Made by a program: the position numbers and the translations under genes | From: Alphaproteobacteria bacterium | GTDB lineage: Bacteria > Pseudomonadota > Alphaproteobacteria > Rickettsiales > UBA998 | DNA: 34,312 nt | Direction of reading: 5' to 3' | Assembly (NCBI GenBank): GCA_004292675.1 | Contig: RDXO01000014.1 | Span: 1 to 34,312, forward strand | Notes under the pieces: model-generated | What the model was told of the DNA's origin: nothing | Seen by the model: the letters and a program-made list of their open reading frames with translations, nothing else | Databases searched by the model: none | In this document: one piece after another, positions 418 through 16,751 of the stretch | Numbering within the stretch: position 1 is the first letter of the stretch | Layout: every line of letters starts with the position of its first letter

Positions 418-3400
418 ATGCACGCACCTTTTGTTCACCTTCGTAGCCATTCTGCCTATTCCTTACTGGAAGGGGCAATGACAGTCAAAAAGATGGTGGA
501 ATATGCCGCCATGCAGCGTATGCCTGCATTAGCCATCACCGATACGCACAATCTTTTTGGATCATTAGAATTCACCCAAGCATGTTTCAAGGCTGGTGTG
601 CAACCGATTATAGGATGCCATTTTGCCCATATCCCCTATGATGCATCGCCTTCGCGCCCGTATGAGCGGGATTATCTGTTGTTACTTGCCAAAGATGAAC
701 AAGGCTATCAGAACCTTATGCGCCTGAGCAGCGATAGCTATTTGCACCCGCAACAAGGGCAAGAGCCACTACGCCATCTGGAATATATCACGGACTATGC
801 CGAGGGGCTGATTGCACTCACAGGCGGGGTCTATGGTGCGCTTGGCAAGGCATTGATGCGCAACCAGCATGACAAAGCAGAAAAAATCATCCGCACCTTG
901 CATGATAGCTTTGGGGATAGGCTCTATATCGAATTAATGCGTCATGGCTTAGCAGAAGAACAACAGATTGAACCTGCATTGCTGCAACTTGCCCTTGCGC
1001 ATCATATACCGATTGTCGCCACCAATGATGCCTATTTTGTGAAGCGTGACATGTATGATGCGCATGATGCCCTCATGTGTATTGCTGAGGGGCGTTATGT
1101 GATGGAGCAGGATCGTCGCCGTGTCACTGCTGAACATCGCCTCAAGACTGCTGAAGAAATGTGCGCACTCTTTGCTGATCTTCCCGAAGCGATTGACAAT
1201 ACCCTGATTATTGCACAGCGTTGCACGGCTTATTCCCCTGCACGCAAGCCTATTTTGCCCAGCTTTCATATGGAACAAGACGGCGTAGTCCTCTCAGAAG
1301 AAGATGCATTACGCACCCGCGCGCGTGAAGGATTAGAAGCCCGCTTGCTACGGCATGTATTCACTGATGCGATGAGCGATGAAGAACGCGCAATCATTGC
1401 CAAGCCCTACCGTGATCGCTTACAGTTTGAGTTGGAGGTCATTATTGGCATGGGCTTTCCCGGCTATTTCTTGATCGTATCGGACTTCATCACATGGAGC
1501 AAAGAACAAAACATCCCTGTTGGGCCGGGGAGGGGATCGGGGGCAGCATCGGTTGTGGCATGGTCACTCTTAATTACCGATCTTGATCCGTTGAAATATG
1601 ATTTGGTATTTGAACGGTTTTTGAATCCTGAACGTGTATCCATGCCCGATTTTGATATTGATTTCTGCCAAGATCGGCGCGATGAAGTCATTCGCTATGT
1701 ACAGCAAAAATATGGCATGGATCGGGTGGCGCAAATTATCACCTTCGGAAAACTGCAAGCACGTGCCGTTTTGCGTGATGTTGGGCGGGTGCTGCAAATG
1801 CCCTATGGTCAGGTAGATCGGATATGCAAACTCGTACCCAGCAATCCTGCTAATCCCGTTACCCTCGCACAAGCTATTGAGATTGAACCCTTGCTCAAGC
1901 AGCAAATGCAGGAGGATGAGACAGTAGCGCGCCTTGTCGAGATTTCTTTGCAACTGGAAGGCTTGTTCCGTCATGCCTCCACCCATGCAGCGGGGGTAGT
2001 GATCGGCGATCGCCCATTGCATGAGTTGGTGGCACTGTATCGTGATCCAAAATCCGATATGCCCGTGGTGCAATATTCGATGAAATATGCTGAAGAAGCA
2101 GGCTTAGTGAAGTTCGACTTTTTAGGACTCAAAACGCTTACCGTGCTTGCCAAGGCACTCGCATTGCTGAAAAAACGCGGTATCGAGATCGATTTATCCT
2201 GTATTCCACTGGATGATGCCAAAACTTTTGATCTACTAAAAGCAGGGAAAGCCATTGGCGTGTTCCAATTTGAAAGCACGGGCATGAGGGATGCATTGCG
2301 TAAATTGCAGCCCGATCGCTTGGAGGATTTAATCGCACTTGGCGCGCTCTATCGCCCCGGTCCGATGGATAACATCCCCACTTATATTGCCTGTAAGCAC
2401 GGCAAGGAACAACCCGATTATCTGCATCCCTCACTCAAGCCCGTATTGGAAGAAACCTATGGGGTGATTATCTATCAGGAGCAAGTACAAAAAATTGCCC
2501 AGATTCTTTCGGGCTATACGCTTGGCGGTGCAGATTTATTACGCCGTGCGATGGGTAAAAAAATTAAAGAGGAGATGGACGCGCAACGCAAAATCTTTGT
2601 TGACGGTGCGTTGAATAATAATGTGGATGCCAAGCAAGCCAATGATATTTTTGATCTTGTGGCGAAATTTGCAGGCTATGGCTTTAATAAAGCGCACGCC
2701 GCCGCCTATGCCCTTATTGGCTATCAGACGGCATATTTGAAAGCCAATTATCCCGTGGAATTCTTTGCAGCATCGATGACCTATGATATGCACAATACGG
2801 ATAAGCTCAGCATTTTCAAACAAGATGCGGAATCGATGGGGATTGCTGTGCTTCCTCCTGATTTGAACCGCTCGGAAGTCGAGTTTAGCGTTGAAGATCA
2901 TCATGGCGCGCTTAGCATTCGCTATGCTTTGGCAGCGGTGAAGAATGTCGGTGCAGCAGCAATGCATGAGTTAGTGGAAGAACGTGGACGCAGCGGTGCG
3001 TATCAAGGCATCTTTGATTTTATCAGCCGTTCAAGTGCGAAATTATTGAATAAACGACAATTAGAGCATTTATTTATGGCGGGGGTGTGCGATAGCATCC
3101 ACACGAACCGTCATCAGCTTTTTGCTTCGATGGATACATTGCTTAGCTATGGGCAGTTGGTGACGGAGGAGCGTAATTCGACGCAAACCAGTCTATTCGG
3201 GGAACATACGGTGGAGGTGCGCCATCCTGATTTAGTGCAGGTGTCCGAATGGAAAGCATTAGAAAAGCTAGATCAAGAATATAAAGCGATTGGTTTTTAT
3301 TTATCCGCGCACCCGCTGGATGGTTACGCGCCTGCATTAGAGATGCTACGTATTCGCAATATGGGCAGCATTACACCCTTGCTGAATGGTGAATATAGCC

Positions 3401-3888
3401 GTCATAAAATTGCTGCAATCGTGATGGGGAAAAATATCCGTAATTCCGCACGCGGAAAATTTGCCTTTGTGCAACTCTCGGATAGTTCGGGGGCATATGA
3501 AGCCTCCATCTTCAATGATGGTTTGTTGAATGAAGTGCGCCCTTTGTTGGAAATCGGAACATTGGTGATGCTGAATGTTGAAGCCAAGATAGAAGAAGCA
3601 GGTGTACGCCTTATCATACAAGAAATGCGCCTACTTGATGATGTATTAAAATCTACGGAAGGGCGCGCTCAAGGAGGGAATCTTACCCTGCGTATTTATG
3701 ATCATCGTGCGGTTGAACAGATTCATGCTCTGTTGCAACATCCGCATCCACAAGGCACAAAGATCACGTTGCACGCCATGATGCAGGACGGGCGCACGGC
3801 ACATATCGCGCTTAAGCACAATTATCGTCTTTCCCCTGAAGCAATGATTAGTGTGCAGCAGGTGCAGGGATGTGAGGTGGTGAAGTGA
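418..3888 (+). CDS. dnaE: DNA polymerase III subunit alpha
   Basis: This is the catalytic subunit of the replicative polymerase (1156 aa; E. coli DnaE is 1160). It opens with a PHP domain (FVHLRSHSAYSLLEG, residues 5-19; PALAITDTHNLFG). The polymerase core has GPGRGSGAASVV, the acidic pair in MPDFDIDF (D411 and D413, equivalent to E. coli D401/D403) and the third aspartate in VKFDFLGLKT (D567). Helix-hairpin-helix and OB-fold regions follow (MGKNIRNSARGKFAFVQLSD). ATG 418 fits the family N-terminus and the nearby promoter; it has no Shine-Dalgarno. The last four bases overlap the start of the methyltransferase (GTGA), so the restriction-modification gene is probably co-transcribed with the replicase. 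The core catalytic motifs looked for are present and no frameshift was seen. Confidence 0.98.
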   Translation: MHAPFVHLRSHSAYSLLEGAMTVKKMVEYAAMQRMPALAITDTHNLFGSLEFTQACFKAGVQPIIGCHFAHIPYDASPSRPYERDYLLLLAKDEQGYQNLMRLSSDSYLHPQQGQEPLRHLEYITDYAEGLIALTGGVYGALGKALMRNQHDKAEKIIRTLHDSFGDRLYIELMRHGLAEEQQIEPALLQLALAHHIPIVATNDAYFVKRDMYDAHDALMCIAEGRYVMEQDRRRVTAEHRLKTAEEMCALFADLPEAIDNTLIIAQRCTAYSPARKPILPSFHMEQDGVVLSEEDALRTRAREGLEARLLRHVFTDAMSDEERAIIAKPYRDRLQFELEVIIGMGFPGYFLIVSDFITWSKEQNIPVGPGRGSGAASVVAWSLLITDLDPLKYDLVFERFLNPERVSMPDFDIDFCQDRRDEVIRYVQQKYGMDRVAQIITFGKLQARAVLRDVGRVLQMPYGQVDRICKLVPSNPANPVTLAQAIEIEPLLKQQMQEDETVARLVEISLQLEGLFRHASTHAAGVVIGDRPLHELVALYRDPKSDMPVVQYSMKYAEEAGLVKFDFLGLKTLTVLAKALALLKKRGIEIDLSCIPLDDAKTFDLLKAGKAIGVFQFESTGMRDALRKLQPDRLEDLIALGALYRPGPMDNIPTYIACKHGKEQPDYLHPSLKPVLEETYGVIIYQEQVQKIAQILSGYTLGGADLLRRAMGKKIKEEMDAQRKIFVDGALNNNVDAKQANDIFDLVAKFAGYGFNKAHAAAYALIGYQTAYLKANYPVEFFAASMTYDMHNTDKLSIFKQDAESMGIAVLPPDLNRSEVEFSVEDHHGALSIRYALAAVKNVGAAAMHELVEERGRSGAYQGIFDFISRSSAKLLNKRQLEHLFMAGVCDSIHTNRHQLFASMDTLLSYGQLVTEERNSTQTSLFGEHTVEVRHPDLVQVSEWKALEKLDQEYKAIGFYLSAHPLDGYAPALEMLRIRNMGSITPLLNGEYSRHKIAAIVMGKNIRNSARGKFAFVQLSDSSGAYEASIFNDGLLNEVRPLLEIGTLVMLNVEAKIEEAGVRLIIQEMRLLDDVLKSTEGRAQGGNLTLRIYDHRAVEQIHALLQHPHPQGTKITLHAMMQDGRTAHIALKHNYRLSPEAMISVQQVQGCEVVK

Positions 3889-5843
3889 GTGGATTACGGT
3901 TTGTGGATATATTCGCAGGGATAGGAGGATTTCATCTTGCGCTGCATCAACTTGGTTGCGAGTGTGTTTTTGCGTCTGAAATTGATCCCCATGCCCGCAA
4001 GACCTACCGTGAAAATTTCTACGCGTTGAATCCCGCCTTATTTGATGAAGATCGCTATAATGAGGATATACGCAGCATATCCCCTGAAGAAATTCCTGAT
4101 TTTGATATTTTGTGTGCGGGCTTCCCCTGCCAACCTTTTTCTCAGGCAGGGTATAAACGCGGTTTTGCTGATACCCATGCATCAGAACGGGGCAATCTAT
4201 TTTTTGTGCTTGCAGATATTTTGGCAGCCAAACGCCCTAGAGCCTTCTTTTTAGAAAATGTCCGTGGTTTGCTCACGCATGATAACGGTAACACCTTTCG
4301 TATTATCAAGCATATTTTAGAGGAAGAACTAGGATACAGTTTCTATTATCAGATTGTGCGCGCCTGTGACTATGGTTTGCCACAATTACGCCCGCGTTTG
4401 TTCATGATAGGCTTTCGTGATGAAGGCATGTTGAAAAGTTTTCACTTCCCGCCACCGATTCCACTAAAGATGACCATGTCGGATGTATGGGATGCCCCAT
4501 GTGATCGTGAAATTGGTTATACGTTGCGTGTTGGGGGGCGTGGCTCTGCCATTGATGATCGCAGGAATTGGGATGCCTACCGCGTCGATGGCACAGTGCG
4601 TCAACTTATGCCTGAGCAGGGCAAAAAGATGCAGGGTTTTCCTGACGATTTCCGTTTTCCTGTATCCACCAAAGAGGCAATGAAGCAATTAGGCAATAGT
4701 GTTGCCATTGATGCAGTGCGTGTATGCGCTGGGGCGATGCTAGAGCATATGGAACATATGGAGAAAAAAAGCGTGAAACATCATAATACGATGAATAAAG
4801 GTGAGTGGACTGAACTCTATACATTGCTCAAAATCATGTATGAACGCCGTCTTATTTTTGCCAATGCAGATTTAGAACCTATGACACCCGAACAAGCATT
4901 TGATATACATACTGTGCGCACGCTCAATACAGGAAATGCCTATCATCTTTTGCCTGATGCCTCTATTATGATAGAAGAAAATGGCGTACAGCGTAGTGTT
5001 GCTTTGGAAGAGTTAGATTTATCCGATACAGCACATGCCATTAAACAAGGAAAAAGTACATTTTCTCTTGGTAAATTGGATGCCATTCGTCATCAACTAG
5101 GCATAAGTTGGGTAAAAAGTGGCACAAGTTTGCAAAAAGCAGATATTATTCTCGATTGCTCTAAAGATGGCATGGGCTACGCACATCAAGGCTTTGGAAT
5201 AAAATCCTTCCTTGGAAGCAAACCCACATTATTAAATGCCTCGGGTAATACCAATTTTGTGTATGAGGTGCGCGGGCTTCATGCGGACGTTCTTGAAGAA
5301 ATTAATGCGATTAGCACACCGCACAAACTCATTGATCGCGTGAAACGCATCCATGAATTGGGTGGGAGCTTGCATTTTCATCATGTGGAAGCGGATAGTT
5401 TGGAATATAATTTACAGCTTATTGATAGCACCATGCCGCAATTACTAAGCGCGATGTTATTAGAATTTGTCATGCATCGTCGCTCTAAAATAAGTGACAA
5501 TTTGCACGCTGTAGTATCCAGTAATCCGAATGGTGTGATTGCACCAAACCTTGATCATGCCGCCTATGTGATTCGTATCAAACGCTTGCTCATGTCGATA
5601 TTGCTTGGTTTTTTTGCAGGAAAAAAATGGGATGGGCAGTACAGCGCGCAAGGGATTATTATCGTCAAGACAGACGGATCACAATATTGCTTGCATATGC
5701 TTGATGTGGTGCAATTAGAGGAATATCTATTTCGCACCATTATGTTTGATACCCCGTCCACGACCCGCCATCGTTATGGATCGCTGATCAAAGAACATGA
5801 TGGGAAATTATACTTTAAGCTCAATATGCAGTTGCGATTTTAA
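3885..5843 (+). CDS. fused C5-cytosine methyltransferase / HpaII-type restriction endonuclease
   Basis: One 652-aa frame contains a whole type II R-M system. Residues 1-295 are a C5-cytosine methyltransferase: motif I FVDIFAGIGGF (6-16), motif IV GFPCQPFSQAG with catalytic C82, motif VI ENV (124-126), QLRPR (167-171) and motif X LGNSV (269-273). Residues 297-652 resemble R.HpaII (RE_HpaII family, recognising CCGG): NKGEWTELY, FGIKSFLGSKPTLLNAS and C-terminal YFKLNMQLRF; 356 aa against about 358 for R.HpaII. The CCGG specificity is inferred. The GTG start overlaps dnaE by 4 nt. Known R-M systems of this type use separate proteins; the join lies at an A7 tract (4764-4770) where one base fewer would end the methyltransferase at TGA 4774-4776 and leave GTG 4773 as the nuclease start. 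So it is either a true fusion, a slippage product or a sequencing error. Confidence 0.9.
   Translation: MSGLRFVDIFAGIGGFHLALHQLGCECVFASEIDPHARKTYRENFYALNPALFDEDRYNEDIRSISPEEIPDFDILCAGFPCQPFSQAGYKRGFADTHASERGNLFFVLADILAAKRPRAFFLENVRGLLTHDNGNTFRIIKHILEEELGYSFYYQIVRACDYGLPQLRPRLFMIGFRDEGMLKSFHFPPPIPLKMTMSDVWDAPCDREIGYTLRVGGRGSAIDDRRNWDAYRVDGTVRQLMPEQGKKMQGFPDDFRFPVSTKEAMKQLGNSVAIDAVRVCAGAMLEHMEHMEKKSVKHHNTMNKGEWTELYTLLKIMYERRLIFANADLEPMTPEQAFDIHTVRTLNTGNAYHLLPDASIMIEENGVQRSVALEELDLSDTAHAIKQGKSTFSLGKLDAIRHQLGISWVKSGTSLQKADIILDCSKDGMGYAHQGFGIKSFLGSKPTLLNASGNTNFVYEVRGLHADVLEEINAISTPHKLIDRVKRIHELGGSLHFHHVEADSLEYNLQLIDSTMPQLLSAMLLEFVMHRRSKISDNLHAVVSSNPNGVIAPNLDHAAYVIRIKRLLMSILLGFFAGKKWDGQYSAQGIIIVKTDGSQYCLHMLDVVQLEEYLFRTIMFDTPSTTRHRYGSLIKEHDGKLYFKLNMQLRF
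4760..4776 (+). promoter_or_regulatory. GGAG-A7-GC-GTGA junction between methyltransferase and nuclease
   Basis: GGAG (4760-4763) is followed by seven A residues (4764-4770) and GCGTGA. In the frame as read, the ORF continues through. With one A fewer the methyltransferase stops at TGA, which overlaps a GTG start (4773) for the nuclease; GGAG then sits 9 nt before that GTG as a proper ribosome-binding site. The dnaE/methyltransferase junction has the same GTGA overlap. Confidence 0.6.
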
Positions 5844-6080: not shown

Positions 6081-7065
6081 CAAGAGGACGGCTAAGCAAT
6101 TCTTCCATGCCTTCTTGTACTGACATGCGCATACGCAAAATATTGCATACAACTACAGAAATCGGCATAGAAATACCCAATTTCATCGATAGATCATATA
6201 CCGCCTCTGCCGTTGATACACCTTCGGTGAGAGGATTCACTGTTTCCGTGGGTACAAAACCATCAATACTATGTTTACCTACCTGCATACCAAGGCGCAT
6301 ATTGCGCGATTGCTCCGATGCACAGCTCAGCATCAAATCTCCAATGCCCGCTAAGCCCTGAAGCGTTTTCGATTGCCCGCCCTTGACTTCTGCAAGACGC
6401 GCCATTTCTGCAAGTCCGCGAGTCATCACAGCAGCGCGGGCATTTTCTCCCAAATTCGCTCCAATCGTCATACCACAGGCAATCGCAATCACATTCTTAA
6501 TTGCACCGCCAACTTGTACCCCCATCACATCATCGCTAATATAGGGGCGAAAAACATGCCCACTCAACATAAATTGAATGCGCTCCGCCAATCTGCGATC
6601 ACGCGATGCTAAAACGGTGGCCGTGGGCAAACCTTGTGCAGTTTCAATCGCAAAATTTGGCCCTGATAAAATCACAATAGGGTTTTGCGTCAATGTGCTT
6701 TCAAGCACCTCCGACATCAACATAAAACTCCCACGCTCAATGCCCTTAGAAGCAATAATCATCGGAATAGATTCATCAATACGATCAGCAAGCGTGATGC
6801 ATAAGGTGCGCAATGCTTGCGATGGCACGGCAAGAATCAAAACATCCGCTGCGCAAGCAACATCTAAATCATGCGTAATGGTGATAGCAGGATCAATAAA
6901 TTGATTCGGCAAATAACGCGTATTAATCCGTGTCGTGCGCATCATTTGTTCCAGATTACTATCACGCACCCAAAGCGTCACATCCGACCCTGCACGATTT
7001 GCTTGCATCGCAAGTGCTGTTCCCCATGAACCCGCACCTAAGACCGCTATGCGATTTCCTTCCAT
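6070..7065 (-). CDS. gpsA: glycerol-3-phosphate dehydrogenase [NAD(P)+]
   Basis: The enzyme reduces dihydroxyacetone phosphate to sn-glycerol 3-phosphate in the cytoplasm for phospholipid synthesis. It has the Rossmann motif IAVLGAGSWGTALA (residues 6-19), VPSQALR, IIASKGIE, ILSGPNFA and GGAIKNVIAIACG with the catalytic lysine, then LGENARAAVMTRGL. At 331 aa it is close to E. coli GpsA (339). I chose ATG 7065 rather than GTG 7071 because AAGGAG lies five bases before this ATG; the RBS overlaps the stop codon of ileS, so the two genes are translationally linked. The last residues (LGFE) and the TAA overlap the transposase scar read in another frame, so the natural C-terminus may have been trimmed or replaced. 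Confidence 0.95.
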   Translation of the reverse strand: MEGNRIAVLGAGSWGTALAMQANRAGSDVTLWVRDSNLEQMMRTTRINTRYLPNQFIDPAITITHDLDVACAADVLILAVPSQALRTLCITLADRIDESIPMIIASKGIERGSFMLMSEVLESTLTQNPIVILSGPNFAIETAQGLPTATVLASRDRRLAERIQFMLSGHVFRPYISDDVMGVQVGGAIKNVIAIACGMTIGANLGENARAAVMTRGLAEMARLAEVKGGQSKTLQGLAGIGDLMLSCASEQSRNMRLGMQVGKHSIDGFVPTETVNPLTEGVSTAEAVYDLSMKLGISMPISVVVCNILRMRMSVQEGMEELLSRPLGFE

Positions 7066-7074
7066 AGTCACTCC

Positions 7075-10000
7075 TTATGATGCATTGGCGCGTTGTGTGT
7101 GTGCGCGTGTAATAGTTAGGGTTACCTCCGAGTTCATCACGTGATGCGTACTCTTATGCCCTGCACATGATGCGGCATTATACTCTATCCCCACACACAG
7201 CGTCTGATCACAGAAATAAACGCTAAATTGATCCACTGCCTGCACAATATGTTGCTCCGCGTGCAGATGGATGCTAATGCGATCACTCACATCAAACCCC
7301 GCATCCTTGCGCGATTGCTGCACAATACGCACCACATCACGCACGATCCCTTCAGCGATAAGATCATCACTTAACGTAGTATCCAGCACCACCAAGCCAT
7401 CCTGAGAGGGAAGTGCCGCCGCACCGTGGGCAATGGTTGATTCCAAACTGAAGTCATATTCGTCTGGTTGCAACATTTCTCCTGCCACGATAATCGCACC
7501 TGATGCATCACGCGCCCATGCACCTGCACGCGCTGCTGATCCGACTTCTTTCATTTTCGCGCCTAAACGTTTTCCTGCAATCGGAAAATGAATCTTCAGC
7601 TTATGATTGGCAACGCCCTCTAATTCTTTAGAAAAATGCACGGCTTTGACATTGGTTTCATCGGCAATGAGTGTGGCGCAATAATCATTCAACGCACCAA
7701 ACTCCACGCCATAGACTGTGAGGTTTGCCAGCGGTTGACGAATACGTAGCGTGAGTTCATTGCGGAGCGCATGGGCGGTATTGCATATTTCTTGCACCTT
7801 ATCCATCGCGTGCATCATGGTGCTATCTGCCCCATAATCACGTAATTCCGTTGGAAACTCCGCCAGATGCACCGAATGTTGCGCATCCAGCACCCCGCCA
7901 TGCACCAGCCCCGCATACATCGCTTCACTGATTTGTGGCAGAATCGGTGCGACCACACGGCATAATGTGTGCAGTACCGTGTACAGCGTATTATAGGCTG
8001 CTTGCTTATCGCTATCCACCGCTTCGCCCCAAAAACGCGAGCGATTACGGCGTATATACCAATTATTCAGCACTTCCAAAAAGGCGGTGATATGGGTGCA
8101 TACGCTTGGTGTATCATAGGCATCCCATGCACCGCGCACATCTTCCACACAGCGTGTCAACTTAGAGAGGATGTAGCGATCCATCATATTGGTGGATGTA
8201 ATATCATATTCCGCCTTTACGCTATCGGCATTTGCATAGAGCGTGAAGAAATGATAGGCATTCCACAACGGCTTAATATAGAGACGCACGGCATCACGGA
8301 TGAATGCCCCTTGGCTATCCAAGAACAATTCATTGCCCTTCATGATGGTGGAAGAAAGCATGAACCAACGGAGTGCATCTGAGCCGTAGCTATCGAATAA
8401 TTCCATCGGATTGACGTAATTCTTCAGTTTTTTCGATAGTTTACGCCCCTGTTCATCCAGCACCACGCCATGACAAATACAGTTCTTGAACGGGATGCGA
8501 TCAAACAACGCGACCGACAACACCATCATATTATAGAACCATCCACGCGTTTGTGCTTCATATTCCACAATGAAATCCGCAGGGAAATTGGCTTCAAACC
8601 ATGCTTTATTTTCAAACGGATAATGCACTTGCGCAAACGGCATTGAACCTGATTCAAACCAGCAATCAAACACTTCATCGACGCGCTTGATGGTATATTG
8701 AGGGTCTAGGGGGCAGGGCTTCGTGAGCGTATCAATGAAGGGTTTATGCAGATCATCGACTTTCACCCCGAAAAATGCTTCCAGTTCCGCAATCGATCCA
8801 AAGACATAAAGCTCTTTATTATTGGGATTATCCGAACGCCATACGGGAATTGGGCAGCCCCAGAAGCGTGAACGGCTGATCGACCATTCCCGCGCACCTG
8901 CAATCCATTTGCCAAAGCGTCCATCTTTAATATGATCGGGAATCCAGTTGATCTGCTGATTCAGTTCTACCATGCGATCCCGAATCTTCGGCACATCGAC
9001 AAACCATGAGGATTGCGCACGATAAATAATCGGCTTATCAGTACGCCAGCAATGCGGGTAATTATGGGTATAATCTTCTTGTTTGATAAGCTGTTCTGTT
9101 TGCTTGAGCCATTGGATAATCCGTAGATTCGCTAGTCCGTATTTCTCTAATTGCGCTTGCGTGTAGGGTTCATCAGCGTGCTTGCCCTTGGTTTCACAAA
9201 TGACATTCAGCCCTTTCAGAGACAAAGTACGGATGGTAACATCAGGCGCACCCTGCCATGCATCACGTTCAATAAGATAATAGGGTCCCATACTATGCTT
9301 AAATTGGCGATCCCCTATATGCTTCATCCCTAAGCGTTCCATCATGGCGTGCGAGCGTGGGTTTTCTGCCACCGCGCCCCCTGCAATCGCATCATAGCCC
9401 AGCACACGGAAGCCATATTCTAGGGAGGCAGCGCATAATTCTGTGCCGTAGCCACCATGCCAAAAATCAGGCATGAGGGCGCAACGTAGTGTTGGCATAG
9501 CAGGCATACCCTCTGCTTGTGCAACGTAAGATATGCCAGCGCGCCCCATAAATGCACCTGTTTCTTTATGGAACACCGCCCATTGCCCATAGCCATGGGT
9601 GCGGAACTCCGACATATTTTCCCGATGTGTGTCGCGTGCTTGCTCACTCGTCATCAGCCCATCATTGACGGTTGCCATGACGGTTGCATTGGTATGCAGC
9701 GCGATGAAATGATCCACATCGTCTGACGTGGGCATACGCAAAATGCAGCGATCCGTTTCAATATGGCTAAGGTCGAATATAGTGTTCGTATAGCGTCCCT
9801 CATGATTGACGGGAACAAGCACAATAATACCATTATTGGCACAGACGCGCATATCATCTTCACCAAACCCCGGAGCCATATGCACAATGCCCGTGCCTGA
9901 TCCCTCCTCGATGAAGTCGCTACCGTCAAGTACACGGAAGGCTTCTGCGTGATCGGAAAAATAAGGGAATAAAGGTTCGTAGGATAAACCGATGAGGGAT

Positions 10001-11361
10001 GATCCTGAAATAATGGTTGCACCCTCTGTTTTTTGTGCAGTGATATAACATGTACGAGCGGTCAACTCCTCCCCCTGCGTGCGGGGGGAGGTTGGGAGGG
10101 GGGTGTTTTCCAATGTCTGTACAATAGTCTGCACTACCCCTTCAGGATTATCGAGTACATCATTATTCCAGAAACGTAGCACCACAAAGCCCGCTTTTTC
10201 TAAGAATACTGTTCTTTCGGCATCGTACGTCTGTTGGGTTATTTCATCATGTTGTCCGCCATCAAGCTCAATAATAAGCTGATGCGAAAGGCAGGCAAAA
10301 TCGACAATATATGTTCCAATAGGATGCTGCCTACGGAATTTAATATGGTCTAATTGCTTATTTTTCAACAGATTCCACAGTGTCTTTTCTGCATCTGTTG
10401 GATTTTTTCGCAAAACTTTAGCATGTTCTAATGCCACAGGATTTCTACTACTATGATCTTTTCCCCCAATAATTCCTAGCTTTGCTGAAGCATTTTCCGC
10501 CCCCCTCCTGCCTCCCCCCGCAAGCGTGGGGAGAGGATCAGAGTCCACCACAAATGCGCAATACTCCATCTCAGCACTCGCCGCTAAAGCCAAATTGCTT
10601 GGCAATGTCCACGGCGTAGTTGTCCATGCAAGAAGATAATAGGCATCTGCTTCGGGCGCACCTTGAGGGCGTTCCTTCAACTTAAACGCGACCGTAATCG
10701 CCTTATCAACCTTCTCACGTGTGGCATCATCAAGGCGGATTTCTGATGTGGATAATACCGTTTCCGCAGCCCAGCTATAGGGCATTACCTTAAAGCCCTC
10801 ATAAATCAAGCCCTTCTCGTGAAGCTGTTTGAATGCCCACAATACGGATTCCATATAAGGTGTATCCATCGTTTTGTAATCATTATGAAAATCCACCCAA
10901 CGCGCCTGAGTGTTCACATAGGATTCCCACTCACCACGATACGCCATGACGGAGGTGCGACAATGCGCATTAAACGCCTCAACCCCATGCGCAATAATCT
11001 GTTGCCTCCCTGATACACCAAGCTGCTTTTCAGCTTCCATCTCGGCGGGGAGTCCGTGACAATCCCAACCAAAACGGCGTTCAACACGCTTGCCCAACAT
11101 TGTTTGATAACGCGCCACGGCATCCTTCACATAGCCCGTGAGCAAATGCCCATGATGTGGTAAGCCATTGGCAAAAGGTGGACCATCATAAAACACATAA
11201 GCGTTGGTGCTGCCATCGGCATTCAGTGCTGCACGTTCATCAACGGAGCGTTCAAACACGCGTTGTTCTTGCCAAAAGGCACGTATTTCTTGTTCAAGTT
11301 GCGGGAACTCCACATCAGAGCGCGCTTTCGGATAATGAGTATAAGATTCTGACTGTTTCAT
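7075..11361 (-). CDS. ileS: isoleucyl-tRNA synthetase with inserted DUF559 nuclease and GNAT domains
   Basis: The protein charges tRNA-Ile and edits mischarged valine. Numbering is from ATG 11361 (1428 aa). The HIGH motif appears as PHHGH (68-72) and KMSKS as KLSKK (974-978). The CP1 editing domain keeps the threonine-rich TTTPWTLPSN (from T247) and GFGEDD ending at D503. Two foreign domains interrupt CP1 in frame: a DUF559 nuclease-like domain with its flanking palindromes (about 275-432) and a RimJ/RimL-type GNAT acetyltransferase (about 532-711). Without them about 1,090 residues remain, normal for the type-2 IleRS of Rickettsiales and relatives. C-terminal anticodon-binding regions follow (NNWYIRRNRSRFW). 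GTG 11370 is an alternative start, but MKQSESYTHYP fits the family and a promoter ends 7 nt before ATG 11361. The frame is open throughout. A split product or protein splicing cannot be excluded, but I see no intein splice motifs. Confidence 0.95.
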   Translation of the reverse strand: MKQSESYTHYPKARSDVEFPQLEQEIRAFWQEQRVFERSVDERAALNADGSTNAYVFYDGPPFANGLPHHGHLLTGYVKDAVARYQTMLGKRVERRFGWDCHGLPAEMEAEKQLGVSGRQQIIAHGVEAFNAHCRTSVMAYRGEWESYVNTQARWVDFHNDYKTMDTPYMESVLWAFKQLHEKGLIYEGFKVMPYSWAAETVLSTSEIRLDDATREKVDKAITVAFKLKERPQGAPEADAYYLLAWTTTPWTLPSNLALAASAEMEYCAFVVDSDPLPTLAGGGRRGAENASAKLGIIGGKDHSSRNPVALEHAKVLRKNPTDAEKTLWNLLKNKQLDHIKFRRQHPIGTYIVDFACLSHQLIIELDGGQHDEITQQTYDAERTVFLEKAGFVVLRFWNNDVLDNPEGVVQTIVQTLENTPLPTSPRTQGEELTARTCYITAQKTEGATIISGSSLIGLSYEPLFPYFSDHAEAFRVLDGSDFIEEGSGTGIVHMAPGFGEDDMRVCANNGIIVLVPVNHEGRYTNTIFDLSHIETDRCILRMPTSDDVDHFIALHTNATVMATVNDGLMTSEQARDTHRENMSEFRTHGYGQWAVFHKETGAFMGRAGISYVAQAEGMPAMPTLRCALMPDFWHGGYGTELCAASLEYGFRVLGYDAIAGGAVAENPRSHAMMERLGMKHIGDRQFKHSMGPYYLIERDAWQGAPDVTIRTLSLKGLNVICETKGKHADEPYTQAQLEKYGLANLRIIQWLKQTEQLIKQEDYTHNYPHCWRTDKPIIYRAQSSWFVDVPKIRDRMVELNQQINWIPDHIKDGRFGKWIAGAREWSISRSRFWGCPIPVWRSDNPNNKELYVFGSIAELEAFFGVKVDDLHKPFIDTLTKPCPLDPQYTIKRVDEVFDCWFESGSMPFAQVHYPFENKAWFEANFPADFIVEYEAQTRGWFYNMMVLSVALFDRIPFKNCICHGVVLDEQGRKLSKKLKNYVNPMELFDSYGSDALRWFMLSSTIMKGNELFLDSQGAFIRDAVRLYIKPLWNAYHFFTLYANADSVKAEYDITSTNMMDRYILSKLTRCVEDVRGAWDAYDTPSVCTHITAFLEVLNNWYIRRNRSRFWGEAVDSDKQAAYNTLYTVLHTLCRVVAPILPQISEAMYAGLVHGGVLDAQHSVHLAEFPTELRDYGADSTMMHAMDKVQEICNTAHALRNELTLRIRQPLANLTVYGVEFGALNDYCATLIADETNVKAVHFSKELEGVANHKLKIHFPIAGKRLGAKMKEVGSAARAGAWARDASGAIIVAGEMLQPDEYDFSLESTIAHGAAALPSQDGLVVLDTTLSDDLIAEGIVRDVVRIVQQSRKDAGFDVSDRISIHLHAEQHIVQAVDQFSVYFCDQTLCVGIEYNAASCAGHKSTHHVMNSEVTLTITRAHTQRANAS
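9229..9768 (-). other. GNAT acetyltransferase domain inserted in ileS
   Basis: The host sequence runs from NHEGRYTNTIFDL directly to LSLKGLNVI in normal IleRS; here about 180 residues (532-711) lie between them. They read as a whole GNAT domain of the RimJ/RimL type: start ETDRCILRMPTSDDVDHFI, middle GQWAVFHKETGAFMGRAGIS, acetyl-CoA loop HGGYGTE, then AVAENPRSHAMMERLGMKH and a final YYLIERDAW. The acetyl-CoA-binding loop is intact, so the domain may be active. I see no repeats at its borders. What it acetylates is unknown. Confidence 0.9.
10066..10104. repeat. palindromic terminal repeat, ileS-distal end of the DUF559 unit
   Basis: CTCCTCCCCCTGCG is followed by TGCGGGGGGAGG and then TTGGGAGGGGGGTG on the plus strand. 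The first two parts form an internal hairpin. The whole is a diverged counterpart, in the same plus-strand sense as the reverse complement of the coding copy, of the repeat at 10499-10539. Confidence 0.75.
10499..10539. repeat. palindromic terminal repeat, ileS-proximal end of the DUF559 unit
   Basis: On the coding (minus) strand it reads GATCCTCTCCCCACGC, TTGCGGGGGGAGGC and AGGAGGGGGGCG. CTCCCC pairs with GGGGAG as a hairpin. It lines up, with few differences, with the plus-strand sequence 10066-10104, so the two copies are inverted with respect to each other. Confidence 0.75.
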
Positions 11362-11368
11362 GCCCCGC

Positions 11369-11397
11369 ACTCTACGATCTCAAACACAAAGATGCAA
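11369..11397 (-). promoter_or_regulatory. ileS promoter, leaderless type
   Basis: On the minus strand TTGCAT (11397-11392), 17 bases, then TAGAGT (11374-11369). The -10 box ends 7 nt before ATG 11361. No Shine-Dalgarno fits either ATG 11361 or GTG 11370; the GTG lies inside the -10 element, which argues for ATG 11361. Confidence 0.4.
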
Positions 11398-11436
11398 GCA
11401 TATATCACAAAATGTGCTATAGTATTATCTTAGTTT

Positions 11437-11505
11437 TTGACTATATGTTTAGTTCCTTTATTCTTATGGCAAACGCTATCATGATCGAAAGGAGACCAAT
11501 TTATG
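11437..11505 (+). promoter_or_regulatory. orphan promoter, Shine-Dalgarno and start codon
   Basis: TTGACT (11437-11442), 16 bases, TATTCT (11459-11464), then GGAG (11491-11494) and ATG at 11503 eight bases later. The frame from this ATG starts MGSVWHGNAEPVP and soon runs in the wrong frame through transposase sequence to a stop at 11674-11676. It looks like the start of a gene whose body was replaced. Bases 11398-11436 show nothing else. Confidence 0.4.
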
Positions 11506-11509
11506 GGAA

Positions 11510-11824
11510 GTGTATGGCATGGTAACGCTGAACCTGTCCCTACGCAGGGTGCATATGGACATCACCGCGCTGCGTGTTGGCAAACAAAAGCTCTATCTTT
11601 TTGTGGCAATCGACCGCGCCAGCAAATATGTTTATGCCGAGCTTTACCCAACGATGACCTTTTTGCTCTATTATAATCACCAAAAGAAGCTAAAATCCTT
11701 GAATTTTATCTCACCCTACGATAAAATCATTCAAGAATTTGACCAAAAACCCCATCTATTCCACATTAATCCAACCCATAAGTTGATGGGACTGAACACA
11801 TACCTTACTACGAGAAAATCATAG
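11510..11824 (+). pseudogene. internally deleted IS481-type transposase
   Basis: From about 11549 the frame reads VHMDITALRVGKQKLYLFVA then IDRASKYVYAELYPTMT, the start of an rve/DDE core of the IS481 type with its first aspartate (in HMDI). At about 11659/11660 it jumps to FLLYYNHQKKLKSLNFISPY and ends HINPTHKLMGLNTY, which reads as the C-terminal part. The second aspartate and the glutamate of the catalytic triad lie in the missing segment, and the N-terminal helix-turn-helix is absent, so this copy is inactive. The frame upstream of VHMDI is degenerate. Confidence 0.7.
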
Positions 11825-12258
11825 ATAGAATCCAAAAAGGCGAGCATCATATTGGTGTACGTGAAATATTTCCTGACATAAGGTGGGATAAGGTATATCT
11901 TATAAAAGGGCATTATTATCGAATATTGTTTGAACCAGATTGGGTTTCTGCACGACTTCCTCATGAATATAGAGGGTATAAGATGCATCCTATTGATATA
12001 TCATTATCAGGAACATATGAAACAGCTCTTGTTTTTGTTGATAAAGAGAAGAAAGAAAATACAGTGTTTTTAGTTGAGGGTCATTATCATCGCCAGCGTA
12101 ACCGTTATATTTTTTCTAATGAAGATACGCGGATGCAGAAAGGATATAAAGCATCAGATGAACCTTATTTTATCATACAACCGTATGATTTTCTTCCTGA
12201 TATAAATACTTCCATTATGTTAACTTCAAATAAAAAAAGTGAGAACATCCATGATTAA
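11782..12258 (+). pseudogene. 5'-truncated gene of unknown function
   Basis: The frame is open from 11782, just after a TAA, but has no ATG near its beginning; the first possible start is TTG 11926. From EHIPYYEKIIDRIQKGEHHI on, it reads as natural protein (VYLIKGHYYRILFEP, then FLVEGHYHRQRNRYIF), ending KSENIHD. I infer that the N-terminus was removed when the neighbouring transposase copy inserted or recombined. I do not recognise the family: it is a small soluble-looking protein rich in Tyr and His with two similar KGHYYR/EGHYHR strands. The stop codon overlaps the ATG at 12251 of the RTX gene, so the two were probably translated together. An accessory or immunity role is only a guess from position. 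Confidence 0.5.
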
Positions 12259-15200
12259 TCTTTTTGTTGCTATTCCTGTTGGCACTATTGCAGTCGGTGT
12301 TGGAAGTCAAGCATTGTTTTATTATTATTTATTATTATTTTGCACGTTCTACGGCGTTTGCTCAAGCGCATGGCGTATTACCTCAGAATATCGCGGAAGC
12401 AACCACTGAACAAAATAATAACGCAAATGCTATCCAGCACGCACTAACGAGCGGTGACATTGCCAATGATGCAGGTAGATGGGCTTCTGAGGGCTTAGGA
12501 TGGGTAAAAGAAACGAATGCAACCACTGAACAAGCTAGAGATTCATGGAGGGATAAATGGAACAATGAGGTTGGTATTCGTTTGGCGGAGTGGGCGAAAC
12601 AACATGGATATGATTGGGATGAATACCATGATGCTTTAATTATGGATGCTTTTTTTAGGGGGTATTTCATAACAGATTTAGATGATCCGCGCATTGATAT
12701 AAGACAAGAGAAGCCTATCCCTGATTGGAATGCGCCTAGTCCTGATTGGCAAAATGCAAGTAGATCGTGCGCAGTACCTTCATGGGAAGACTTAAAAAGG
12801 GCGTTAGAAGAAGAAAAACGCAGCGTTCAAGAAGAGCGAGAAGCCAACGACACGCCACAAGCGACAAAGCCACAGACACCGGTGTCGCTAGATATGGACG
12901 GGGACGGGTTGGAATTGATTAATGTATCTATGTCACGAGCCTATTTTGATATTGATAATGATGGCTTTAGGGAAAAAACAGCGTGGGTTGCCCCTGATGA
13001 TGCCTTGCTTGCCTTTGATCGCAACGCTAACGGATTGATTGATAACCAAAATGAATTATTTGGGAGGAGACCGGGAACATTTTTTAATGATGGATTTGAC
13101 ATATTAGAAGCCGAGTTTGATAGCAATCGAGACCAAGTGCTGACCAGTGCTGATGCGCGGTTTGGGCAATTACGCGTCTGGAATGATCGCAATGGCGATG
13201 GCATATCACAGGCGGGTGAATTACGAACATTAACACAAGCGGGCATCACACGCATTAACCTTGTGGAAAACAACTTCCCCACGGAAATGTTTTTCGGAAA
13301 TCGCGCCGTTGAGAAATCTGATTTTACCATTAATGGCGTGGTGCGTAACGCATTTGATGTGTTATTTGATGTAAACCAAGTGCAGAGCGAATGGATTCTC
13401 CCCGCGAATTATCAGTACGCTGCGGGTGTCACCGCGCTTCCAAGCCTACGTGGCATTGGCGATATGAAGCCACTTTGGGTTGCCATGACGGACGATGCCA
13501 CGTTGCGTACTATGGTGCAGAACTTTAATAATCAGAACTATGCGCGTGTGAATTTTGGGCAATTACGCAGCACTGTTGAAAATATTTTGCACCAATGGGC
13601 GGGGACAAGCACCGTTCCTCATGAGGGTTCGTGGCAGTTTACGTCAGGGCAACATATGAGTGCGCGCACGGTTGAAACGATGGATCGATGGTTTGGTTTG
13701 GATACGGGTACGAGCGCTCTTGAGTTTACGCAAAATAAGGGGCGTTTATATCTATATGAGTGGAAGGATATTGTCAGTGATACGATGACGAAATTATTAA
13801 TCCAGCACGCGACGCGCCCTGCAGCCTTGCAAGGATTTACGTATGATAAGGCAACAGGCATGATTACGGGGGATTTAAGCGCGGCATTGACATTGATGCA
13901 GACGGCGCAACCTGCCACTGGCGCAGCGCGTCATGCCTATTGGATGGATTATGTGCCGATTATTAACACGATTGCTGATGTGCAAGGATATTCCGACGAG
14001 TTTTATCGTCACACGCTCGCGGGAACGTATTTAGATGCGCTTCCTGATGATGTTACTAACTTCCGTTCACACCGTATCATCAAGCACGAATTAGGGCAAG
14101 ATTATATGCGCGGTACGGATCGCGGGGAATATATTTGGGCGGATGCGACATTTGGGTTAACCAGTTCGGTTACTGTGGATGGTGGCGGCGGTGATGATCG
14201 TATCGAGATTCGCCCGCAACAATCGCTGACGAGTACGGGTAATAATACTGATTATATATATCATCGTGGTGACGGCAATGATACGATTAACGATCATTGG
14301 GGAAGTGATGATCGATTGTTCCTTCGAGGTATTCGTTCCAATGAGGTGCAATTCCGCCTTAGGGAATATGATTTATTGCGATCCGATAATCATAGTACGA
14401 TGAATGATGTGGAAATTAATATCGGCACTGAAGCGACGATATTGTTAGAGAATTTTAATCTGTTCGCGCAGTCAAATTTTGGTATCGTGGAGAGTGTGAA
14501 CACGATTGAGCAAATTGTGTTTGATGATCGCACGGTAACAGCAGCGGAAGTGATGCGTTTGGCGCGACAAAATAGCTACAGCAACGGTACAGACTGGATT
14601 TATGAGCGGAATCAAAGGACTATTGCTGATACCACAGAGCCAACGCAAATCTTTGATGCAAGTGTAGGGAATGATTTCTTTTATTTTACGTCATCCTCAC
14701 CCATCCGTTTGGATTATGACCTTGGGGATGGTATGGATCGTATTTATGGGGAGACTCTGCTCACCGCTCACAATGGTTGGAATAAAAACATTACGGTGAA
14801 TTTCGGTCGAGGAATTAATTATGATAACGTCCAATTTTCTAATATGGGGGCTAGTATTAACCCTATAGCTGTTAATGAGGGAATTGTATTACGCATTAAT
14901 GATAATGATGCCCTGCAATTTGTTGCGCTGCCATTAACTCATGCTCATAACATCACGCTACAATTTAGCGAAGGTACAACACGAACGATTACGCTTAATA
15001 CAGCATTACATGCACGCGGTGCAGGTGCGTTTGTTGAACGTATTAATTTAACCCCATACCCGAATCTTAGCACGACTAATTTTGCGCGAACATTAACGGG
15101 TACGAATAATAATGATACATTGCAAGGTGATGCGCGTAATGAATCCTTAAATGGAGGCATGGGGAATGATATATTACGCGGTGAAGCGGGCAATGATCTT

Positions 15201-16751
15201 TTGGATGCTGGTTTAGGTAATGATGTGTATCATTATACCCTAAATGGCGGGTTTGATCGCATCACAGAGTCTCTGGAAGGTGTTTCTGATGATCGATTAA
15301 TTTTTGGTACGGGTCTTACAGGTTCAAATCCATTTACATTTACTAATCTTAGGTTGGATCGTCCAACATCATTTTTGGATTCCTCTGCAATACTTATGAC
15401 ATTCCAAGGGCAGACAGGCGGTGTGTATCTTGCCAATCAATTTCAAAATGACAATGTGGCTATTGAACATTTTCAGTTTGCTGATGGTACGCGTACAGCA
15501 GCGCAGATACGTGAACTTTATTTTACGCAAAACACAACGTCAGGTCATGATATTATATCCACTTTTACAGGTGATACAGCTAGGATCGTGAATGCTGGTT
15601 TAGGTAATGATCGTATGACGGGATATGGTCATCGTGAACGATTCATAGGTGGTGCAGGCAATGATACGATTTTGTCAATGGGGTATTCTTTTGTCGCAGA
15701 TACCCTAGAAGGTGGTGATGGGCATGATTATATTTTTAATCAAGGTGCGGGAGATAGTATTGTAGCGGGTGCTGGCAATGATGTGATTGCGAGCGCGGTT
15801 ACCACGATGAATGGTAATAGTGTCAGTGGTGGTGATGGTCATGATTTCATACGAGGTTCGGATCAATCAGCAGATGTTTTGAATGGTGATGCTGGAAATG
15901 ATACGATTAATGCACAGGGAGGCAATGATACGCTGAATGGCGGCGTGGGCAATGATATATTATTTGGCTTTGGCGGTCATGATCGGATTATAAGTGGAAC
16001 GGGCATCGATCAGATGATCGGCGGAGGTGGCGCGGATCACTTTGTTGTGACGCGTGGTGTAAATTCACAAACCATCATTCGTGATTTTTCTCCTATGATG
16101 CAAGGCGAATTGATTGATCTTTCGGCATTTGGCACAGCGCAAGCATTAACCTATCGTATCGTGCGTTCAGATATTCATTTCACCTTACCAGATAATCACA
16201 TTTTGATCTTGGAGCGTGTGTCGTGGAAAGAATTAAATGCGGCTAACTTTATTGGTGTCGCATCGTTAACGCCAGATGCACAACATCATGCATCGCTCAT
16301 TAATGGCACGGCAAATAATGATAATCTGAATGGCACGGGCGCAGCAGATATTATACGCGGGTGGGCAGGGAATGATAGCATAAATGGTGGAGTGGGCAAT
16401 GATGTTTTATGGGGGGATGATGGTAATGATAGCGTGAATGGTGGCGCGGGACGCGATCAACTCCGTGGTGGGGCAGGGGGCGATCAATTTATTTGGACTG
16501 CCCATGCGCATAGCACCAAAAGCCAACCCGATGAGATTATTGATTTTGTTGCACGTGTTGATAAAGTGGTATTCAGAGGGCTTGGCTTTACAGGAGGACT
16601 AGATCGGGATGGGGGCAATACGGAAGCAGGTGAATTGCGTATTGTGGTACAAGGAGACATAAGCACCGTTCTCTCTGATCAAGTAGATTTTGCGGTGCAG
16701 TGGAATAATGCCGCGACGCTGATTACTGCAACAGATTTTATCTTTGCCTAG
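12251..16751 (+). CDS. large RTX calcium-binding protein, start region frameshifted
   Basis: A protein of about 1,495 aa, probably exported by a type I secretion system (no classical signal peptide in the main frame; C-terminal domain after RTX repeats). The N-terminal region has NAIQHALTSGDIANDAG and a later WNNEVG, resembling DUF6973-like domains (weak). From 12882 there are Asp-rich EF-hand-like blocks (SLDMDGDG, FDIDNDGF, FDRNANGLIDNQNELFG, WNDRNGDG), typical of RTX proteins. Blocks of GGxGNDxLxG nonapeptides lie around 14180, 15100-15230, 15600-16050 and 16300-16490, followed by the C-terminal EIIDFVARVDKVVF. ATG 12251 (MINLFVAIPVGTIAVGVG) leads into the main frame only if one of two tandem 10-bp copies (12321-12340) is removed. 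As sequenced, the main frame can begin only at a TTG (12264) or by slippage. The target and effect of the protein are unknown. Confidence 0.8.
12321..12340 (+). repeat. perfect 10-bp tandem duplication that shifts the RTX frame
   Basis: ATTATTATTT occurs twice in succession. With one copy, ATG 12251 reads SQALFYYYFARSTAFAQAHG straight into the RTX frame. With two copies the ATG frame ends at TGA near 12405. Confidence 0.8.
15597..16050 (+). repeat. main block of RTX nonapeptide repeats
   Basis: The encoded protein repeats GG-G-x-D-x-(L/I)-x-G units, for example LNGDAGNDTINAQGGNDTLN and GGVGNDILFGFGGHDRI. Such repeats bind calcium in a parallel beta-roll after secretion. A second compact block lies at about 16303-16490. 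Confidence 0.85.

Follow-up and report, generated by a model that had tools for sequence, protein, structure and literature searches.

A Gene for Isoleucyl-tRNA Synthetase With a Putatively Mobile, Palindrome-Bounded DUF559 Element and a Separate GNAT Domain in Its Editing Domain

Organization of the ileS Locus

The stretch of DNA under study comprises 34,312 nucleotides of contig RDXO01000014.1 from an alphaproteobacterium of the order Rickettsiales (assembly GCA_004292675.1) and is called the window in the following. It contains the gene ileS coding for an isoleucyl-tRNA synthetase (IleRS), into whose editing domain CP1 a DUF559 nuclease and a GNAT acetyltransferase are inserted in frame. 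The gene is located on the minus strand (7075-11370) and encodes 1431 amino acids from a GTG start; an ATG at residue 4 is an alternative start (7075-11361, 1428 amino acids) and gives the single open frame of 1428 codons reported in a preliminary description, which was made from the sequence letters. Read on the plus strand, the region is interrupted by 45 stop codons, and the true frame is that of the minus strand.

The motifs of all three enzymes are intact in the protein of 1431 amino acids. The synthetase part contains the class I catalytic motifs PHHGH (residues 71-75, 11146-11160) and KLSKK (residues 977-981, 8428-8442). CP1 contains TTTPWTLPSN (residues 250-259, 10594-10623) and the GFGEDD-type motif GTGIVHMAPGFGEDD (residues 492-506, 9853-9897), which we take to be its editing-site motif and its second editing-site motif; all four are encoded on the minus strand, and all four had been named before. 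The IleRS assignment was supported by the equivalog model TIGR00392 (817.7 bits against a cut-off of 621.4). The Pfam families found in the frame were tRNA-synt_1, DUF559 (residues 315-420, E = 3e-41), Acetyltransf_3 (residues 541-683, E = 6e-22), Anticodon_1, and DUF5915.

The borders of the inserts were taken from an alignment with 35 IleRS frames of relatives and 14 database proteins; IleRS was aligned from 36 of the 55 genomes with listed candidates, and 11 more were added later from DUF559-bearing genomes. Insert 1 comprises residues 278-439 (162 amino acids, 486 nt, 10054-10539, minus strand) at core site 273 of CP1, and insert 2 residues 536-714 (179 amino acids, 9229-9765, minus strand) at core site 383. 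The estimates of about 158 and 180 residues in the preliminary description were thus close, and its length of about 1,090 residues after removal of the inserts agrees with the 1090 amino acids that were left here. Its naming of the two domains also holds, as both exceed their Pfam cut-offs (PF04480 with 140.1 bits against 20.6 for the nuclease, PF13302 with 79.2 bits against 25.4 for GNAT).

The alignment with relatives showed inserts at the same two sites in other genomes. Both inserts are present in the database proteins P0013 and P0016, whereas the IleRS of genomes G004 and G018 carries DUF559 only and that of G006, G008, and G009 GNAT only. On this distribution, the two inserts appear to be gained or lost independently among relatives. 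The statement that no IleRS with this architecture had been described went too far, since P0013 and P0016 share it and the NCBIfam model NF040702 (ileS_w_GNAT) covers IleRS with an N-acetyltransferase domain; the protein studied here scores 285.8 bits with this model, far below the cut-off of 1999, and is not a member. Further palindrome-type peptides, e.g., of the VIPAKAGIQ and HPREGGD types, lie near the same IleRS sites in loci L053 and L055 and in P0013 and P0003.

We give a probability of about two in three to the interpretation that this ileS contains a mobile, palindrome-bounded DUF559 element, inserted in frame, and a separately captured GNAT domain that is kept by selection, both in CP1. 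That the gene is instead an assembly artefact or a pseudogene is a suspicion which a fragmented assembly (45 contigs, 85.6% complete) raises and which we regard as negligible: all 1431 codons are open, purifying selection acts in the relatives, and an artefact is unlikely because one insert or both recur at these two positions in other genomes. A second intact ileS, the finding named beforehand as one that would speak against the gene, was not found in this 85.6% complete genome (G000) by a search with PF00133, whose remaining places were ValRS, LeuRS, and three unnamed frames of 473-587 amino acids.

Insert 1 as a Nuclease Gene Between Inverted Palindromes

The DUF559 domain of insert 1 (residues 315-420, 10111-10428, minus strand) is related by sequence to the solved structure 3hrl, and its motifs IVDF and IELDGGQH presumably hold the PD-(D/E)XK residues. 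It is framed by two inverted arms, which were located by complementarity and a hairpin search. The arm on the N-terminal side (10500-10533) forms the hairpin CTCCCCACGCTTGCGGGGGGAG and the arm on the C-terminal side (10069-10102) the hairpin CTCCCCCTGCGTGCGGGGGGAG, given in the plus-strand reading. The two arms are 79% complementary as an inverted pair, and each has its own GC-rich hairpin. Their GC content is 68-72%, compared with 40% for the nuclease between them. Within the window, the hairpin pattern was found only at these two arms, and none was expected from shuffled sequences. Insert 1 therefore has terminal inverted repeats, as judged against the same-locus control, like a mobile element. 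No transposase was found in it by Pfam, which reported only DUF559 and the nuclease-like families PF18741 and PF10881, both below cut-off.

An AlphaFold2 model of residues 215-760, built from 15 sequences, reached a mean pLDDT of 74.9 and a pTM of 0.51, the latter leaving the placement of the domains uncertain. Confidence was moderate for the nuclease and high for GNAT. Both arms (model residues 65-96 and 212-223) fell below a pLDDT of 50, as did the 8 residues at the start of the model and a loop of the nuclease (158-168). Insert 1 is flanked by predicted beta strands of CP1 (model strands 55-63 and 224-230). The 50 PDB fold matches listed for the model were GNATs and one IleRS, with no nuclease among them.

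Inteins and introns, too, are found in frame in conserved essential genes, and with homing endonuclease genes insert 1 would share a nuclease gene in that position and possibly the co-conversion of flanks. Removal of insert 1 by protein or RNA splicing is nevertheless very improbable. The Pfam scan of the protein gave no intein or Hint domain at E = 1, and Rfam gave no match at E = 0.5 in positions 6500-12500. Furthermore, the element has no splicing domain, its ends are palindromes, and neither IleRS site falls within a conserved motif.

The Nuclease in Other Enzymes of the Order

DUF559 was found in 60 of the 262 genomes of the order. From the 90 matches listed, 69 were studied; the others were 20 weaker than E = 5.3e-28 and one truncated match (G070). 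The frames at these 69 loci are long, with 51 of at least 270 and 42 of at least 500 amino acids, and in 45 of them at least 80 amino acids lie on both sides of DUF559. As a yardstick, 10 of the 150 GNAT rows listed from the same order belong to frames of at least 500 amino acids.

The most frequent hosts are aminoacyl-tRNA synthetases, with 16 IleRS (assigned by BLAST to the IleRS studied here), six ValRS, and two LeuRS. Enzymes of replication and repair follow with DnaE (3), RecJ (3), RecG (2), and Mfd (1). The nuclease occurs once each in a glutamate-synthase-like protein, RdgB, Pth (at the C end), RecO, TsaC, CarB, PriA, a PglX-like methylase, TlyA, the CCA-adding enzyme, GltB (at the N end), HolC, and LipB. 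The rest consists of one AhcY frame (L140), four unnamed long frames (L121, L132, L153, L158), and 18 short or free copies. By these assignments, related genomes have the same nuclease in frame with enzymes of some 20 other named kinds. BLAST clustering had suggested Mfd for L117 and L160, which are both RecG, and AhcY for L153, which belongs to no named family.

The frames L140:3626-5566 (minus) and L153:4735-5658 (plus) have an unnamed N-terminal part in common. In L140, most of adenosylhomocysteinase (AhcY) follows the nuclease, which points either to a chimera or to genes fused where the element lies. The dnaE gene of the window itself (418-3888, plus strand) matches its family in one unbroken stretch; DnaE of G004, G006, and G008 carries DUF559.

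Inverted flanks were found at most of these loci. When the 200-nt flanks on the two sides were matched in inverted orientation, the best score had a median of 52 at 65 loci (4 of the 69 have flanks shorter than 150 nt) and of 17 in 279 same-locus controls, and 56 of the 65 exceeded the 99th percentile of the controls (28.2). In a harsher control, in which arms were swapped between genomes (median 20, 95th percentile 39), 48 of the 65 were still above the 95th percentile.

Selection on the Element and Palindromes in the Genomes

The arms (45 codons before and 35 after the DUF559 domain) were compared with the nuclease in nine pairs of elements; in eight of these pairs, both elements belong to one and the same named host. 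The nuclease showed dN/dS values of 0.03-0.19 in the five pairs with unsaturated dS. The arms had a lower pS than the nuclease in all nine pairs and dN/dS values of 0.11-0.90, which were above that of the nuclease in four of five. From these values, the arms look conserved as DNA and the nuclease as protein.

The palindrome pattern CTCCCCN{2,10}GGGGAG occurs at 32 sites in the genome studied (reversed control: 0), two of which are the ileS arms. The other 30 are mostly of another arm type; six pairs of them form doublets of about 153 bp with two inverted arms, and 29 of the 30 lie outside any spanning frame of 150 amino acids or more. The idea that they are solo copies of the ileS arms was therefore rejected, and they support the family by their architecture alone. 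At L168-L169, L178, and L183-L202 of the same genome, intergenic composite repeats have one hairpin or a 153-bp doublet at the same place; the flanks around hairpin and doublet are similar, as if doublets arise at solo hairpins.

G004 contains the arm pattern of the ileS type 17 times, two in its own ileS element and 15 elsewhere. Of 13 non-ileS arms that were read, six sit in a frame of at least 150 amino acids. A nuclease-less piece was found in the IleRS of G038, which has a full element at core site 383 and a piece of 52 amino acids at core site 273; the piece starts with the same 23 residues as the full element, with one change.

Across the order, at least three palindromes were found in 36 of the 52 genomes with DUF559 at E = 4.2e-25 or better (of the 60 with any match), compared with 15 of the 210 others. 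Stratification by family left the association in place: over 11 families, the proportions were 34 of 50 genomes with strong DUF559 and 14 of 67 others (Cochran-Mantel-Haenszel test, p = 4e-5), with 145 of the 262 genomes outside this comparison.

The 15 genomes that have at least three palindromes without strong DUF559 bear on a different explanation, in which another enzyme spreads ordinary palindromes of the type of repetitive extragenic palindromes (REPs) or Rickettsia palindromic elements (RPEs), and a nuclease gene caught between two such palindromes travels with them. REPs and RPEs inside genes, with no enzyme of their own there, are indeed known from parts of the literature (PMC10969869, PMC3733652). 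We consider such a passenger role unlikely, as the nuclease lies between inverted arms at 56 of 65 loci and between palindrome-type peptides in other orders as well, and is itself under purifying selection.

Arrival of Insert 1 in the ileS Gene

Returning to the putative mobile element, its route into this gene can be approached through P0009, the nearest IleRS, which has the GNAT domain and lacks insert 1. Outside core positions 210-390, the two proteins are 80-100% identical in 30 segments of 30 residues, with at least 93% in 26 of them. Inside, the identity falls to 18-77% in five of six segments, and the sixth, with the editing motif, is identical. The CP1 sequences closest to the one studied here are those of the carriers G004 and P0013 (75%), followed by those of the carriers P0016/G099 (72%, with flanks that are only 65% alike) and of one non-carrier, P0003. 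The likeness of CP1 beyond that predicted from the flanks had a mean residual of +0.138 in 21 pairs of carriers at the site of insert 1 and of -0.011 in 1224 non-carrier pairs, an excess that comes from few and non-independent pairs, P0016 and G099 being the same sequence. The two arms in ileS are the only ones of their type in the genome. Because no other such arm is present, exchange with an allele that carried the element is a more likely origin of insert 1 than a local jump, as far as the sequences tell.

Several observations count against this route. The CP1 of the non-carrier P0003 is as close to ours (72%) as that of P0016, and that of P0009 follows with 70%. The evolution of CP1 is generally fast, and no excess (-0.001) is seen in 45 pairs of DUF559-only carriers with mixed sites. 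In addition, the GNATs of the protein studied and of P0009 are sisters (SH-aLRT 90), which weakens a swap of CP1 between the two as one whole block.

Insert 2, a Recurrent GNAT Domain

Insert 2 matches Acetyltransf_3 and has the GNAT fold, with the acetyltransferase PA3944 as the nearest solved one. Its motif HGGYGTE (9439-9459, minus strand), presumably the acetyl-CoA binding loop, contains nearly invariant positions (G426, Y427, G428, and E430 of the aligned segment). The arm search used for insert 1 found no inverted pair around GNAT in this ileS. In P0003, P0011, and P0013, palindrome-type peptides were read in the alignment beside GNAT.

At core site 383, the GNATs form a clade of 17 rows including the one studied, and a second type is present in G008, G009, and G034. 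Elsewhere in IleRS, GNAT was found at core site 293 in G054 and P0003, and twice in G023 (383 and 472). By site and tree, in which long branches were noted, at least four captures of GNAT by IleRS may be counted. Purifying selection is indicated by dN/dS values of 0.05 (G009/G008) and 0.21 (this gene/G006). The same GNAT family is also embedded in LeuRS of G043 (in four stretches), in aconitase of G023 and G043, and in CarB of G023, and is therefore not specific to IleRS. Insert 2 is thus likely to be a separate, recurrent GNAT capture which is kept by selection. In G023 and G043, which belong to one genus, the in-frame GNATs of LeuRS, aconitase, CarB, and IleRS (two) look like a second kind of serial intruder (frames L261:1236-5765, L262:1873-5130, L263:995-4213, L264:482-4867, and L058).

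The preliminary description had left two possibilities, selfish DNA that survives by keeping the frame or a synthetase turned into a three-enzyme fusion. The first describes insert 1 well, with its arms conserved as DNA and its nuclease in about 20 other enzymes, and is not shown for insert 2, which is without such arms here and looks like a selected domain capture. In the second, IleRS would have recruited nuclease and acetyltransferase for translation quality control or a stress response. Structurally it stands, all motifs being intact; the low dN/dS of both domains and the one GNAT clade with 17 rows at one site fit it as well. The two inserts come and go independently, though, the nuclease and its DNA-conserved arms occur in so many other enzymes, and the separate captures of GNAT by IleRS, aconitase, CarB, and LeuRS leave a purpose-built three-enzyme IleRS only partly supported, so that we hold this explanation to be improbable. 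RimL acetylates aminoacyl adenylates. A possible IleRS-specific task of this kind for the GNAT domain is weakened by the GNATs in the other three enzymes.

Occurrence Outside the Order and Proposed Mechanism

Outside the order, relatives of this nuclease were found in 226 proteins of at least 787 amino acids, of which 119 were examined (the 120 listed minus the protein studied here). The hosts listed include HrpA (e.g., in Sideroxydans), primosomal protein N', methionine synthase (Flavobacterium), DNA polymerase III alpha, valyl- and isoleucyl-tRNA synthetase, and transcription-repair coupling factor. Palindrome-type peptides flank the nuclease on both sides in 84 of the 119 and in 3 of 316 control stretches, a contrast that is to be read with reserve, as the peptide pattern was written after the flanks had been seen.

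According to the mechanism we propose for the element, the DUF559 nuclease would cut DNA and the break would be mended from an element-bearing copy, which would spread the element together with some flanking DNA to empty alleles (homing). The palindromic arms would mark the ends of the element and might also permit jumps to new sites. In essential genes, only in-frame insertions into surface loops would survive. There would be no splicing, so that the arms would become flexible linkers and the nuclease, translated with its host, would fold as a side domain. In the genome studied, the element would have entered by exchange with a carrier allele and not by a local jump. The GNAT of insert 2 is predicted to act as an acetyltransferase.

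More tentatively, and with somewhat less than even odds, this may be a new type of splice-free homing element, a palindrome-bounded nuclease that is translated as a side domain in essential enzymes of several phyla, mainly in loops of the editing domains of IleRS, ValRS, and LeuRS in Rickettsiales, and that is also the missing mobilizing enzyme of solo GC-rich intragenic palindromes.

A number of points weigh against a mobile element. Its movement and homing are inferred and were not observed. Nine of the 65 loci have no inverted flanks above the same-locus control, and with a score of 38 the ileS element falls just short of the 95th percentile of the swapped arms (39). The nearest DUF559 neighbor lies in the same genome for only 4 of the 69 loci, so that no recent local bursts are apparent, and the copies in LeuRS of G153 and G226, which are 99% alike, seem to be inherited. 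The palindromes of the genome studied are mostly of another arm type than those of ileS. The reversed arm pattern also matches, once in G000, 14 times in G004, twice in G008, and 32 times in G009 (both strands), because the arms are runs of G; it is therefore the letters of the arms and not their counts that are telling. Finally, DUF559 may be a normal domain in the restriction enzymes and DNA methylases among the 119 outside proteins.

Comparison With Known Palindromic Repeats and DUF559 Enzymes

RPEs of about 150 bp are described in parts of PMC10969869, with 44 insertions in R. conorii, in frame in protein genes. Like insert 1, they are palindromic DNA that keeps the reading frame of numerous protein genes in this order (PMC10969869). 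In contrast, RPEs end in CGTC (PMC3733652, in part), an end that the arms of insert 1 lack by inspection. A further difference is size, since insert 1 has 486 nt and includes a nuclease. RPEs are not known to carry an enzyme. In parts of PMC3733652, some REPs are placed within genes that serve replication or repair or that encode RNA helicases or tRNA synthetases, and the CGTC repeats, grouped there with the RPEs of R. conorii, seem to lack a dedicated transposase.

REPtrons and TIRtrons (PMC3733652, in part) likewise have an enzyme gene flanked by palindromes or inverted repeats and many solo and paired palindromes in the genome. The enzyme of insert 1 is a DUF559 nuclease and not the REP-associated tyrosine transposase (RAYT), and the whole unit is in frame with the host protein. 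How palindromes without an enzyme enter essential protein genes in frame is, to our knowledge, an open question. A nuclease that is bounded by palindromic arms and read in frame with many essential genes offers a concrete candidate enzyme for such repeats and a testable system. If this holds, many long housekeeping proteins that appear as "fused" in public annotation, such as HrpA, PriA, MetH, ValRS, and IleRS would host a translated parasite rather than be bifunctional, and CP1 of class I synthetases would be a landing ground for foreign domains.

In the literature searched, which did not cover preprints and most subscription journals, nothing was seen that connects DUF559 with palindromic elements or with insertions into essential genes. 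Palindromes within genes are already known as RPE and REP; in the parts of the sources available, a DUF559-bearing palindromic element in essential genes was not seen described. Caulobacter VsrA, a Vsr-like endonuclease with the same Pfam domain, has been placed in the PD-(D/E)XK superfamily; in the parts of that article available, it is functionally linked to a cytosine methyltransferase and not described as an insert (PMC12907096), whereas the domain of insert 1 is embedded in its host. A reading as a defense system was dropped, PADLOC giving one weak DpdF match (E = 2.5e-4).

Neighboring Genes in the Window

Adjoining dnaE, a single frame (3885-5843, plus strand) encodes a C-5 cytosine methylase fused to an HpaII-type restriction enzyme (PF00145 and PF09561). 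The Vsr-like DUF559 domain of ileS is about 4.3 kb away. On the other side of ileS, the frame at 12264-16751 (plus strand) has matches, all below NCBIfam cut-offs, to RTX-type calcium-binding repeats and encodes a protein of 1495 amino acids.

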